Assembly: GCF_900090305.1 (NCBI RefSeq)
Contig: NZ_LT607751.1
Span: forward strand, 3,968,001-4,032,000
Length of the DNA stretch: 64,000 bases
Direction of reading: 5' to 3'
Source: Micromonospora siamensis
GTDB taxonomy: Bacteria; Actinomycetota; Actinomycetes; Mycobacteriales; Micromonosporaceae
Both the position numbers and the translations under genes were made by a program. The notes beneath the pieces were generated by a model. It ran no database searches. It saw only the letters and a list, made by a program, of their open reading frames with translations, and was not told the DNA's origin. This document shows positions 7,287 to 49,865 of the stretch, in pieces (within the stretch, counting starts at the first letter, position 1; every line of letters starts with the position of its first letter).

Positions 7287-8191
<905 letters not shown>

Positions 8192-8640
8192 GTCCGTGGT
8201 GTCCGCGAGGAGCGGACGGATTCGACGCTAGGAGCGGTTGGTGCCGATTGCCCACTTCTTGTGAAGTTCTTCACCCGGACGGGCGATCGGGAGTTTTTCT
8301 CGCCGTGGCCTGGTTCGGTCGGTGGATCCGACCGCGCAACGTCCCACCAGGACACCCGGAAAAGCGCATCTGAACTGGGAAAATGCCGGAGCGCGAGGAC
8401 CGTTGTGGACGGCGGCGAGGAGGGCCACGACCCCGCCCGGCGGGCCGGGAAGGTCTGCGGCGAACCAGCCGAGCGGGGCGGTCCGCACCGGACCTTCGGC
8501 GACCGTCGGTGACCGTTCATCGACGGCCGGCGGGACCTTCGACAACGATCGGACGACCCATTGTCCTCACCCGCGGTAACGTCACGAATACGCAGCGTCC
8601 ACCCGGGACCTGTCACCGTCGGGCCGGCGACACCGCCCGG
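8192..8640. other. 449-bp intergenic stretch with probable rpf promoter
   Basis: No convincing gene is seen; a 168-codon minus-strand ORF here overlaps the riboswitch and has no family features. A minus-strand -10-like TAGCGT (8225-8230) lies about 35 bp upstream of the riboswitch. GTGAAG-TT-CTTCAC (8261-8274), a 6-bp-arm palindrome, could be a regulator site for the Rpf gene. The remainder up to the convergent kinase-like gene holds nothing recognisable. Confidence 0.4.
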
Positions 8641-47580: not shown

Positions 47581-48780
47581 TCACCCCTTGACGCAGACCA
47601 CCTGCTTGAGGTGCGCCACCACCTCGACCAGGTCCTCCTGCTGCGCCATCACCTCGGTGATGTCCTTGTACGCGCCGGGGATCTCGTCGACCACCCCGGC
47701 GTCCTTGCGGCACTCCACCCCGGCGGTCTGCCGCTCCAGGTCCTCGGTGCTGTACGTCCGCTTCGCCTGTCCCCGGGACATCCGCCGGCCCGCGCCGTGC
47801 GACGCCGAGCAGTACGCGTCCGGGTTGCCCTTGCCCCGCACGATGTACGACCCGGTGCCCATCGAGCCGGGGATGATGCCGAGGTCCCCCGTGCCGGCCC
47901 GGATCGCCCCCTTCCGAGTGACCAGCACCTCCACCCCGTCGTAGCTCTCCTCCGCCACGTAGTTGTGGTGGCAGGAGATCGGCGCGTCGTAGCTGACCTG
48001 CGGGAACTGCTCACGCACCACCCCGCAGAGGACTGCGAGCATGACCGCCCGGTTGCGGCGTGCGTACTCCTGCGCCCACCACAGGTCCCGCCGGTAGGCG
48101 TCCATCTCCGGGGTGCCGGTGAGGAAGACCGCCAGGTCCCGGTCGGGCAGGTCGGTGTTGTGCGGCAGCGCCTGCGCCACCCGGATGTGCCGCTCGGCCA
48201 GCTCCTTGCCGATGTTGCGCGACCCGGAGTGCAGCATCAGCCACACCCGGCCGGCGTCCGGACCGTCCTGCTCCAGGCACACCTCGATGAAGTGGTTGCC
48301 GCCGCCGAGCGTGCCCATCTGGTGCCGGGCGCGGCTCTCCAGCTGCCGGACCCGGCGGTCCAGGTCACCGAAGCCGGTCCAGAAGGCGTCCCAGCCGCCC
48401 TGCTCCAGGCCGCGTACCCGCCGCGGGTCGACCGGGTCGTCGCGCTTGGCGAAGCCGACCGGGATGGCCGCCTCGACCGCCGAGCGCAGCGCCGCCAGGT
48501 CGTCGGGCAGGTCGGCCGCGGTCAGCGAGGTCCGCACCGCGGACATCCCGCAGCCGATGTCGACGCCGACCGCGGCCGGCGAGACCGCCTGCCGCATCGC
48601 GATCACCGAGCCGACCGTCGCGCCCTTGCCGAAGTGCACGTCGGGCATGACGGCGACGCCCTGCACCCAGGGCAGGGCGCCGATGTTGCGCAGCTGCTTC
48701 GCCGCCTGCGGCTCGATGGCGTACGGGTCGGTCCAGACCCGTACCGGGGCCCGGGTGCCGGGCAGCGGGGTGAAACCCAT
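47581..48780 (-). CDS. rtcB: RNA ligase RtcB (canonical)
   Basis: The 399-residue tRNA/RNA ligase has all metal and guanylation motifs: GVDIGCGMSAVR, GTLGGGNHFIEVCL, LMLHSGSRNIG, ISCHHNYV, and SASHGAGRRMSRGQAKRTY with the His-GMP site. The tail (CRKDAGVVDEIPGAYKDITEVM) is standard. It seals 2',3'-cyclic phosphate and 5'-OH ends left by anticodon nucleases and ribotoxins. The ATG has GAGGAGA 6 bp upstream. Only about 35 bp separate it from a tRNA-like RNA on the same strand, itself behind a leader ORF and terminator, so expression is probably set by attenuation. Confidence 0.96.
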   Translation of the reverse strand: MGFTPLPGTRAPVRVWTDPYAIEPQAAKQLRNIGALPWVQGVAVMPDVHFGKGATVGSVIAMRQAVSPAAVGVDIGCGMSAVRTSLTAADLPDDLAALRSAVEAAIPVGFAKRDDPVDPRRVRGLEQGGWDAFWTGFGDLDRRVRQLESRARHQMGTLGGGNHFIEVCLEQDGPDAGRVWLMLHSGSRNIGKELAERHIRVAQALPHNTDLPDRDLAVFLTGTPEMDAYRRDLWWAQEYARRNRAVMLAVLCGVVREQFPQVSYDAPISCHHNYVAEESYDGVEVLVTRKGAIRAGTGDLGIIPGSMGTGSYIVRGKGNPDAYCSASHGAGRRMSRGQAKRTYSTEDLERQTAGVECRKDAGVVDEIPGAYKDITEVMAQQEDLVEVVAHLKQVVCVKG

Positions 48781-48815
48781 GATCGTCTCCTCGTGCGGGG
48801 GTGTGTCGGGTCGGG

Positions 48816-48887
48816 CGGGGGCGGCAGGATTCGAACCTGCGACCGTCGGGTCTGGAATCCGGTGCTCTTCCGTTGAGCTACGCCCAC
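48816..48887 (-). tRNA. tRNA-Trp(CCA)-like RNA with defective anticodon stem
   Basis: The 72-base minus-strand RNA folds as a cloverleaf. The D-stem GCTC/GAGC is perfect. The T-arm is perfect: GCAGG-TTCGAAT-CCTGC. The acceptor stem (GTGGGCG with CGCCCCC) has one mismatch at pair 2-71. In the anticodon arm only the three central pairs form (CGG/CCG), while 27-43 and 31-39 are C/A and A/C. The loop places CCA at 34-36 after U33, with G instead of A at 37. No CCA end is encoded. It may be a poorly charged or non-decoding tRNA, a decoy, or an RtcB substrate; an ordinary tRNA is less likely. Confidence 0.7.
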
Positions 48888-48906
48888 GGGGTGGGAGCCG
48901 GGTGAC

Positions 48907-48944
48907 GAAAAAGCCGCCCGGACCCGTCGTGCGGGTGGGCGGCT
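48907..48944 (-). terminator. Rho-independent terminator upstream of the tRNA-like RNA and rtcB
   Basis: On the minus strand AGCCGCCC-ACCCG pairs with CGGGT-(CC)-GGGCGGCT around a 5-base loop, then a run of T follows. It lies 18 bp after the leader ORF stop and 19 bp before the tRNA-like RNA. It is the only terminator I noted in this window with a clear U-tract. Confidence 0.85.
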
Positions 48945-48962
48945 GCGCGTGTAGCGCGGGCG

Positions 48963-49091
48963 CTAGGAGCGCCGCCACCCGGGTCGGTACCGCTGCCACG
49001 AGCAGCGGTCGGAGTTTCGTTCGCCGGCTGGCAGCCGGACACCGCCGCGCGGCATGGACCGCGGGGTCTCGGTGTGGGCGTGCTGCGTCAC
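48963..49091 (-). CDS. 42-codon leader peptide with two Trp codons
   Basis: A GTG ORF with AGGGAG 6 bp upstream encodes a basic 42-residue peptide ending CSWQRYRPGWRRS (Trp at 32 and 39). It lies between a probable promoter (49135-49163) and the terminator at 48907-48944, ahead of the tRNA-like RNA and rtcB. A perfect 8-bp hairpin (48989-48996 with 49002-49009) covers the first Trp codon. The bases over the second Trp codon (48971-48981) can pair, with one bulge, with the terminator 5' arm (48932-48943). These are features of a translating-ribosome attenuator. Confidence 0.6.
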   Translation of the reverse strand: MTQHAHTETPRSMPRGGVRLPAGERNSDRCSWQRYRPGWRRS

Positions 49092-49134
49092 GGCGTACTC
49101 CCTGGGGGTGGTCTCGGATGACCTTGCGGCATTG

Positions 49135-49163
49135 ACGGTAGGGCCACCGCGGGACCACCGCAA
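49135..49163 (-). promoter_or_regulatory. Probable promoter of the leader - rtcB transcript
   Basis: On the minus strand TTGCGG (49158-49163), a 17-bp spacer and TACCGT (49135-49140) fit a vegetative actinomycete promoter. Transcription would start near 49128, about 37 bases before the leader ORF. Confidence 0.55.
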
Positions 49164-49227
49164 TCGATATCGCGGAGCATCGGGTCGATGGGTGGGGACG
49201 GTTCGGCGGGCGCCGAAGAGTGGATCA

Positions 49228-49260
49228 CCTACCCTGATCTGCGGAAACGATCAGGGTAGG
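49228..49260. promoter_or_regulatory. 12-bp inverted repeat before the DUF6058-like gene
   Basis: CCTACCCTGATC (49228-49239) and its exact complement GATCAGGGTAGG (49249-49260) flank a 9-base spacer, ending 11 bp before the GTG at 49272. It could be an operator or an mRNA hairpin near the ribosome site; it also lies upstream of the divergent rtcB leader promoter. Confidence 0.65.
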
Positions 49261-49271
49261 GGGGTCGGAGA

Positions 49272-49865
49272 GTGGAGTTGCGGCACCAGGTGGCGGAGCG
49301 GTTCCGTGCGGTGAACGGGGAGCACCCGATGTCGGCCGCGGACGACGCGTACGTCGACGGGCAGTTCGTGGTGCTCGACGAGTTGTGCGCGGCCCACGGC
49401 CGGGACACCGACGACGTACGCCGGATGATGCTGGACCGGCGGCTGCCGCTGCCGGGCTACCTGCGCTCGGACGGCGCGCAGATGGTCCCGGCGGACCTGT
49501 TCGCCCTGGCGGAACGGGCCGGCGGGGTGGCGGCGCTGCCGGCCTGGTTCGCCGGGCACTGGGACGACCCGGCGGTCGGCGCGGCGGAGTGGGACGCCTA
49601 CCTCACCGGCCGGTACGTGTGCCTGCACTCGGTGACCCCGGCCAACATCCTTCGCAAGGACGCGCTGACCGGGGCGATCCGGGCGGCGCCCGACGAGCCG
49701 GACGCCGGATCGCCGGCCTGGCTGACCCGACTGCACGCGTGGGTCGACGAACTGGACGCGCTGGAGCCGGCCTTCACCGCATACGACCGGCTCCGGTTCG
49801 GCGGCCCGACGTCCCGGGACACCTGCGTGGACGCGGTACGAGCCCGCTGGCCGCGGCCGAGCTGA
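49272..49865 (+). CDS. DUF6058-like protein
   Basis: The 197-residue soluble protein has the conserved order YVDGQFVVLDELCAAHG, VRRMMLDRRLPLPGYLRSDG, AQMVPADLFALAERAGG, LPAWFAGHW, EWDAYLTGRYVCLHSVTP, ILRKDALTGAIR and RLHAWVDELDALEPAF, ending YDRLRFGGPTSRDTCVD. This matches the DUF6058 family, sometimes listed near natural-product genes; the function is unknown. The start GTG is close to a 12-bp inverted repeat, and its Shine-Dalgarno spacing is poor. Its 3' end overlaps the convergent M56 gene by 92 bp. Confidence 0.75.
   Translation: MELRHQVAERFRAVNGEHPMSAADDAYVDGQFVVLDELCAAHGRDTDDVRRMMLDRRLPLPGYLRSDGAQMVPADLFALAERAGGVAALPAWFAGHWDDPAVGAAEWDAYLTGRYVCLHSVTPANILRKDALTGAIRAAPDEPDAGSPAWLTRLHAWVDELDALEPAFTAYDRLRFGGPTSRDTCVDAVRARWPRPS

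Follow-up and report, generated by a model that had tools for sequence, protein, structure and literature searches.

The closest described systems are the attenuators of whiB7/wblC, in which complete translation of an upstream open reading frame (uORF) leads to transcription termination and disturbed translation leads to read-through (PMC11550727), and that of ilvB1 in M. tuberculosis, which follows the same logic (PMC13236596). WblC promoters of S. coelicolor have the form GAAAWY, 3 bp, TKGMNN, 16-19 bp, TANNNT, and WblC directly controls six tRNA genes in a regulon that also holds translation factors (PMC7157823). Anabaena has a silent array of 26 tRNAs (trn), rtcB and an HNH gene repressed by TrcR, and trn is induced by translation-targeting antibiotics (PMC10272220). 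In the tRNA array units described from mycobacteria, phages and plasmids, the most widespread gene is that for an HNH endonuclease (PMC5966550), and phage tRNAs carry anticodon-loop changes that have been explained by escape from anticodon nucleases (PMC10264068). Here we describe a leader upstream of a gene for the RNA ligase RtcB in a 64,000-nucleotide stretch of Micromonospora siamensis DNA (contig NZ_LT607751.1, positions 3,968,001 to 4,032,000; hereafter the window). We consider it likely that this leader is a ribosome-controlled attenuator of the whiB7/wblC kind, placed behind a WhiB7-type promoter and driving a translation-resilience regulon. To our knowledge, the physiological role of bacterial tRNA arrays is not settled, and neither is that of bacterial RtcB.

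Like the whiB7/wblC attenuators (PMC11550727, PMC13236596), the leader has a uORF, an intrinsic terminator and an antiterminator that would form when uORF translation fails, but its output consists of tRNA arrays, rtcB or an HNH gene and not of a transcription factor. It resembles the WblC/WhiB7 regulon (PMC7157823, PMC10727445) in promoter geometry and in having tRNA genes among its targets, but it would place a second, RNA-level switch behind a WhiB7 site that is here a predicted one; the terms 'rtcB' and 'RNA ligase' are absent from the main texts of these two articles. With the Anabaena trn system it shares a tRNA array, rtcB and an HNH gene under common control, whereas in Anabaena the control is by a protein repressor, rtcB is chromosomal and trn lies on a megaplasmid; no uORF attenuator is described in the available text of that article (PMC10272220). 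As in the published tRNA array units (PMC5966550, whose main text does not use the terms rtcB, promoter, terminator or anticodon loop), there are many tRNAs in a row with an HNH gene within. The array tRNAs resemble phage tRNAs (PMC10264068) in that their anticodon loops are changed relative to the housekeeping tRNA, but most of them are encoded in bacterial chromosomes, downstream of a regulated leader, and their resistance to nucleases is putative. On our best reading the parts are of known kinds and are combined here into a ribosome-sensed switch for tRNA arrays and an RNA ligase. For RtcB with tRNA arrays or clusters the open-access literature did yield the Anabaena article (PMC10272220), but it yielded no such switch, no report of RtcB with a pseudo-tRNA and, in the portions available, nothing on RtcB with WhiB7 beyond a feather-degradation paper. 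The sharing of one leader by rtcB and by spare, altered tRNA sets suggests that attacks on protein synthesis are answered in a coordinated way. Such a switch links tRNA arrays to RtcB. It suggests a trigger, failure of translation, and an output, repair together with tRNAs that resist nucleases, both of them testable in a group to which many antibiotic producers belong. The WhiB7 response would gain a further level of control at the RNA, and the argument made for the anticodon loops of phage tRNAs would apply to bacterial arrays as well.

The locus occupies positions 47581-49170 of the window on the minus strand, in the order promoter, leader ORF, antiterminator, terminator, tRNA-Trp-like gene and rtcB. 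Its features are as follows.

49166 to 49170, minus strand: AT-rich element ATATC of the putative WhiB7/WblC-type promoter, directly upstream of the -35 (alignment A1)
49158 to 49163, minus strand: predicted -35 element TTGCGG, with a 17-nt spacer to the -10
49135 to 49140, minus strand: predicted -10 element TACCGT (TANNNT; alignment A1)
48963 to 49091, minus strand: leader ORF (uORF) of 42 codons plus TAG, with a GTG start and the Shine-Dalgarno (SD) sequence GGGAG (alignment of relatives)
48971 to 48980, minus strand: arm A, GGGTGGCGGC, codons ..G-W-R.. at the 3' end of the uORF, the 5' arm of the predicted antiterminator
48933 to 48943, minus strand: arm B, GCCGCCCACCC, common to antiterminator and terminator (pairing tests)
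48908 to 48943, minus strand: predicted intrinsic terminator, a GCCGCCC/GGGCGGC stem and an inner stem followed by TTTTT (called from sequence only)
48813 to 48888, minus strand: degenerate tRNA-Trp(CCA) (ARAGORN; Rfam 54.9 bits)
47581 to 48780, minus strand: rtcB, RNA 3'-phosphate/5'-OH ligase family, 399 amino acids (PF01139, relatives among RtcB structures in PDB)

The AT-rich element reads GAATAT in most relatives (alignment A1). A sequence-only reading of this stretch had proposed a promoter, a 42-codon ORF, a terminator, a defective tRNA-Trp-like RNA and an intact rtcB, and every part is found where that reading placed it. The rtcB gene is indeed full-length, with the RtcB domain PF01139 spanning residues 29-399 (424 bits), and the tRNA-like RNA is indeed defective, with pairing disrupted in both the acceptor and the anticodon stem.

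The leader and its cargo are a real, conserved regulatory unit. From a DNA search covering 81 genomes of the genus we fetched 20 regions, which together with the window provided 21 aligned leaders, the training set for alignments A1 and A2 and for a covariance model, R1. The model spans 92 positions, from the end of the uORF to the T tract, and excludes the tRNA and rtcB. Because the training loci were picked by tRNA/rtcB similarity, their cargo is not independent evidence. It is of three kinds: long arrays of 17-33 tRNAs (L043-L046, L048-L050), short arrays around rtcB (L031-L033, L037-L041; for example, L039 reads Trp-Pro-Glu-Gly-rtcB-Arg(ACG)-Gln-Leu-Leu-Arg-Cys), and a lone tRNA-Trp or Trp-like gene with rtcB (L034-L036, L042). 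The locus nearest to the window by rtcB (97%), L047 of M. mirobrigensis DSM 44830, has the promoter, uORF, terminator and rtcB, and no tRNA.

R1 has matches in 176 of 300 sampled genomes of the family and in 70 of 101 Micromonospora genomes. The latter contain 95 matching places, of which 65 precede rtcB, 21 precede tRNA arrays (7 of these being training loci), 6 precede an HNH gene and 3 precede none of the three. We fetched 59 distinct non-training places with scores from 107.8 down to 30.5 bits, chosen by rank and place and not randomly: 49 are followed by tRNAs or rtcB, 7 by the HNH gene and 3 by neither. All 20 places of the first lot have tRNAs and/or rtcB downstream; the second lot of 20 comprises 13 tRNA arrays, 5 cases of rtcB alone, 1 HNH gene and 1 transposase-like ORF; and the third adds 11 tRNA arrays, 6 HNH genes and 2 places with neither, which have the two lowest scores (30.5 and 31.2 bits). 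For comparison, chance alone would place a tRNA in the 700 nt downstream in about 0.3% of cases in this genome. Elsewhere in the family, 27 places were inspected in 13 genera; 26 precede tRNA arrays and 1 precedes an HNH gene (L148). Looking from the other side, rtcB is present in 92 of the 101 Micromonospora genomes, and 65 of these 92 genes are preceded on their own strand by an R1 match, which lies within 525 nt in 64 cases and at 2531 nt in one. An attenuator with a leader ORF ahead of a tRNA and rtcB is thus a conserved arrangement, as had been proposed, but it is not special to rtcB, because tRNA arrays and the HNH gene stand behind the same leader. At L150 the R1 match is followed by a transposase-like ORF, and the DNA fetched there contains neither a tRNA nor rtcB.

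The M. siamensis genome itself has a second copy of the leader (contig positions 3967074-3967163, R1 73.3 bits), about 0.8 kb to the left of the start of the window and about 50 kb from the leader of rtcB. Its cargo (L094, 3967074-3967646) is four tRNA-like genes, which ARAGORN calls Leu(GAG), Met(CAT)-like, Leu(CAG) and Arg(ACG) and of which Rfam reports three. With two leader copies, one for each cargo, this genome appears to have split the system into rtcB and a small array.

Several features point to translation of the uORF. The TAG stop occupies one shared alignment column in all 21 loci and the uORF lengths (38-43 codons, 114-129 nt) are every one divisible by 3, whereas the non-coding spacer past the stop varies over all three phases (8/7/6 loci by length modulo 3), a combination beyond chance. 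The start codon is GTG in 20 loci and ATG in one. The in-frame GC content by codon position is 0.70/0.64/0.87, which in such a genome would be the signature of a translated frame. In 33 of 37 non-training loci there is likewise an ORF of 25-60 codons that follows an SD sequence and stops at the equivalent position. (Of the 59 non-training leaders, 37 were taken for this test and 38 for the permutation and promoter tests described below; the rest were omitted blind to the result.) The peptide is another matter. The sequence-only reading had suggested checking for conserved leader codons; within the genus the peptides have PRGG (21 of 21) and an ending GW(R/W)R (19 of 21) in common, and peptides of other genera have almost nothing in common except the last codons, which overlap arm A. 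Column entropy by codon position is 0.64/0.69/0.48, so positions 1 and 2 are more variable than position 3. Translation, and not the peptide, seems to have been kept.

These patterns bear on two other ways in which a leader ORF might act. One is nascent-peptide arrest of the erm/cat type, in which a specific peptide would sense one drug class. Arrest leaders are known for drug resistance genes, and the PRGG motif and common ending of the genus peptides would suit one; the low constraint on codon positions 1 and 2, and the loss of nearly all similarity outside the genus except where the codons overlap arm A, make such a leader improbable here. The other is the classical attenuator that senses charged tRNA, proposed by the sequence-only reading, which noted two Trp codons in the window's leader ORF: a ribosome stalling at Trp (or Arg) codons when the tRNA is cut or uncharged would block the terminator. 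All 21 aligned leaders do have Trp codons, one to four apiece, along with several Arg codons, and the first tRNA of an array is usually Trp. However, arm A (48980-48971) contains the conserved Trp-Arg codons, so a ribosome stalled at them would hide that arm and favor termination, the opposite of what was proposed. The number and place of the Trp codons vary, some leaders of other genera (L102, L103, L106, L107) finish in ..GRRRR or ..GGRRR without a final Trp, and the leaders contain no run of a single amino acid. We therefore regard sensing of charged tRNA as quite unlikely.

The preferred reading, a whiB7/wblC-like switch that responds to whether the uORF is translated, depends on pairing between the end of the uORF and the terminator. 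The last codons, GGG TGG CGG C, are able to pair with the 5' arm of the terminator over 10-11 bp. Across the alignment, arms A and B are paired in 97.0% of 230 cells, as against 33-64% (maximum 63.8%) when one is slid along the other. In folding predictions for four leaders, A pairs with B in every case before the 3' arm of the terminator has been synthesized; in L031 the pairing has only 8 pairs. Among 38 non-training loci, with arm B anchored on CCGCC, the native A:B duplexes were stronger than all 5000 of 5000 permutations (mean -20.7 versus -19.5, sd 0.32), a figure to be set against the kinship of the loci, which was not removed, and against the design of this repeat test after a first version had failed. 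The terminator and a hairpin at the stop codon are paired in 99% of cells and are nearly invariant; the outer terminator stem of 7 pairs is unchanged in 21 of 21 loci and is followed by a T-rich tract, which one C interrupts in some. The leader thus has a predicted antiterminator that uses the end of the uORF and is mutually exclusive with the terminator, as in the whiB7/wblC attenuators.

During normal translation, a ribosome at the uORF stop codon would cover arm A, which leaves the terminator to form: arm B would pair with the terminator 3' arm and transcription would stop. If ribosomes failed to initiate, or stalled early in the uORF, A would pair with B first and transcription would read through into rtcB, into a tRNA array (most with boxA, many with an HNH gene) or into both. 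RtcB would then re-join cut RNAs, and the array tRNAs, whose anticodon loops are altered, would take the place of those that had been cut. Translation stress would accordingly be the inducing signal, and protection from anticodon nucleases the expected benefit.

Another possibility is that the hairpin acts only as a plain terminator that ends a short transcript, with the ORF untranslated and the tRNA and rtcB driven from elsewhere. The terminator is the most invariant part of the leader and the minimum-energy fold of the window segment, as this would predict, but the potential of A to pair with B is preserved despite base changes, the ORF has in-frame lengths and a high GC content at third codon positions, and the same three kinds of cargo stand behind 92 of the 95 matches in the genus. 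A promoter downstream of the terminator, which would have spoken against attenuation, was looked for by strict consensus only, and no promoter-like site was found there. A plain terminator is in our judgment quite improbable.

The promoter of the leader appears to be of the WhiB7/WblC type. A loose regular expression (an AT-rich hexamer, 1-5 nt, TTGS, and TANNNT at the right distance) finds this motif in 26 of 38 non-training upstream windows, compared to 2 of 1516 tiles from other parts of these loci and none of the 38 windows when reversed or when reverse-complemented; a stricter version finds it in 19 of the 38 windows and not once in either strand control. The genome encodes its own WhiB7 with an AT-hook (L056), and upstream of that whiB7 gene we see by eye TAAATC-GT-TTGCCC followed by a uORF and a terminator, in the same order as in the rtcB leader. 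At two loci from another family of the class (L234, L235), a WhiB gene, tRNA-Arg(GCG) and rtcB stand in a row, and the WhiB protein has an AT-hook, RGRPR, near its C-terminus; tRNAs lie beside rtcB in 3 of 28 class loci taken from outside the family. From the promoter motif we infer that the leader depends on WhiB7.

A number of results weigh against the attenuator reading. A generic scan of 48700-49300 for sigma-70 promoters and terminators listed nothing; the stem is interrupted and the promoter is unlike those of E. coli, which accounts for the silence, and the promoter and terminator calls therefore rest on comparison with relatives. The motif is missed by the loose expression in 12 of 38 loci, several of which look right by eye, and 4 of 37 loci have no SD-led uORF under our rule. 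Covariation in both hairpins had been put forward as a check: the antiterminator has changes on both sides of a pair, but few (2 pairs, 3 cells in the training set), which 122 and 36 of 500 shuffles also reached, with a covariation score reached by 10 of 500, and the terminator helix has no covariation in the 21 aligned loci, because it and the stop-codon hairpin hardly vary. The first version of the A:B permutation test gave no signal (native -16.6, permuted -16.2, with 254 of 2000 permutations as good), since the folding rule used to locate arm B frequently chose the wrong hairpin. In the window itself A and B pair in a shifted register, which slightly lowers our confidence, and in the finished window segment the terminator fold (-41.4 kcal/mol) beats the antiterminator (-34.8), so the switch must depend on the order of transcription. 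Outside the family the leader is rare: only 6 of 296 genomes of the class have R1 matches, 3 of them being Micromonospora (the hits outside the genus, L088-L090, score 31-33 bits), in a search whose stricter filters lose weak matches. Finally, 27 of the 92 rtcB genes lack an R1 match. We viewed the upstream DNA of 20 of these by eye, over 360 nt. Four have a diverged uORF and terminator (L173, L174, L177 and L183, with R1 scores of 28.7, 17.9 and 25.5 bits for the first three and none listed for the last), six have mainly the promoter (L172, L176, L179, L181, L184, L185), three have an SD-led ORF whose promoter region would lie beyond these 360 nt (L182, L186, L187), and seven have nothing recognisable.

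Relatives clarify the origin of the tRNA-like RNA. At its place they have an ordinary tRNA, usually Trp, at the head of an array, and an intact housekeeping tRNA-Trp exists elsewhere in the M. siamensis genome (L124). Besides its stem mismatches, the window copy has the anticodon loop TTCCAGA where the housekeeping tRNA has CTCCAAA. It is probably a decaying remnant of the first tRNA of an array, which in our best explanation has shrunk in the window to this single gene ahead of rtcB. With its one tRNA the window is not an array unit by itself; relatives are, for example L050 with 33 tRNAs. The proposal that the RNA is itself the regulator, as a decoy, a sensor, an RtcB cofactor or a T-box-like element, draws on its position between terminator and rtcB and on its degeneracy. 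It does not agree with the ordinary array tRNAs found at that place in relatives, nor with seven loci that have the leader and rtcB but no called tRNA (L047, L098, L151, L153, L164, L166, L167), and Rfam at E ≤ 1 over 48700-49400 reports only the tRNA and one sub-threshold plastid match, with no T-box. We consider this role very improbable.

Under the attenuator reading the array tRNAs would be spares, and their anticodon loops are distinctive. We compared loop positions 32-38 of array tRNAs with those of the housekeeping isoacceptor in the same genome (50 tRNAs by ARAGORN). In nine rtcB-linked arrays the loop differs in 53 of the 53 tRNAs compared, and in other array loci it differs in 434 of 730, the differences being at positions 32, 33, 37 or 38, because tRNAs were paired for comparison by their anticodon, and a few of the tRNAs possibly lying outside arrays. 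As a control, housekeeping loops were identical to those of the window genome in 21 of 22 (G067) and 20 of 21 (G132) fetched tRNAs, whereas array tRNA loops in the same two genomes matched their own housekeeping loops in 0 of 6 and 7 of 17. One array tRNA (L046, 10170-10245) is called with the anticodon TTA, which would read the ochre stop.

A tblastn search located the HNH gene (PF14279) in 31 of 81 sources. It is standalone in 7 and inside arrays in the others (one locus having it twice, and a few copies being partial), mostly between Gly(GCC) and Gln(CTG). The loci in which the leader is followed by the HNH endonuclease gene alone are L148 and L203-L208. Past their first tRNA, most arrays have a form of (TTGAGA or TTCTCA)ACTCCACAGYGGATGG, a boxA of the rrn type; in the genome's own rRNA operons, TTTGAGAACTCAACAGGGTG lies 142-147 nt ahead of the 16S start motif in 4 of 4 pattern matches. 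A regular expression for boxA, derived from these same sequences, matches 35 of 43 array loci and none of the 14 loci in which rtcB comes first or is preceded by no more than one tRNA, the loci having been sorted by us; two further loci had none. This would fit antitermination of a long untranslated RNA, as in rRNA operons. The boxA spacer in the genus looks closed by GTCCCGG/CCGGGAC.

L352, a 104-kb IMG/VR contig, has the leader (R1 40.0 bits) with a promoter-like site by eye, 33 tRNAs (ARAGORN), the HNH gene, rtcB (80%) and a phage-integrase-family gene (PF00589, 88 bits). The L352 record gave no match to one Pfam terminase model, so it is not shown to be a phage and may be a phage or another element. 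tRNAs lie within about 1.5 kb of 12 of 80 viral rtcB loci, and a search of plasmids found rtcB homology only, among the matches listed. A broader and more tentative idea is possible but in our view somewhat short of probable: a two-layer stress regulon, with a WhiB7-type promoter and a ribosome-run attenuator, turns on a spare translation kit of nuclease-evading tRNA arrays plus RtcB. This kit would travel on mobile elements, as with the leader, about 33 tRNAs, HNH gene and rtcB beside an integrase-family gene in L352, and would be dismantled in various ways in chromosomes, with the window at nearly the last stage.

Other features were noted in the window and in more distant genomes. A second RNA repair pair, RtcB2 (NF007153, TIGR03073; 43246-44403, plus strand) and PrfH (TIGR03072; 44400-45008, plus strand), which overlap by ATGA, lies 3.2 kb from the leader-linked rtcB. 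It resembles described RtcB2-PrfH operons (PMC6514570), and its ligase is of the same Pfam family as the leader-linked one, but it belongs to another RtcB subfamily and forms its own operon on the other strand, not behind the leader. A c-di-AMP riboswitch (RF00379, 64.5 bits) is located at 8025-8196 on the minus strand. By eye, the loci L221-L233 and named Streptomyces loci have an AT-rich/TTGCCG promoter-like site before rtcB and a conserved short ORF starting MCIAR. A regular expression finds the DNA of this ORF in 26 of the 69 loci L281-L349, not all of them from Streptomyces.

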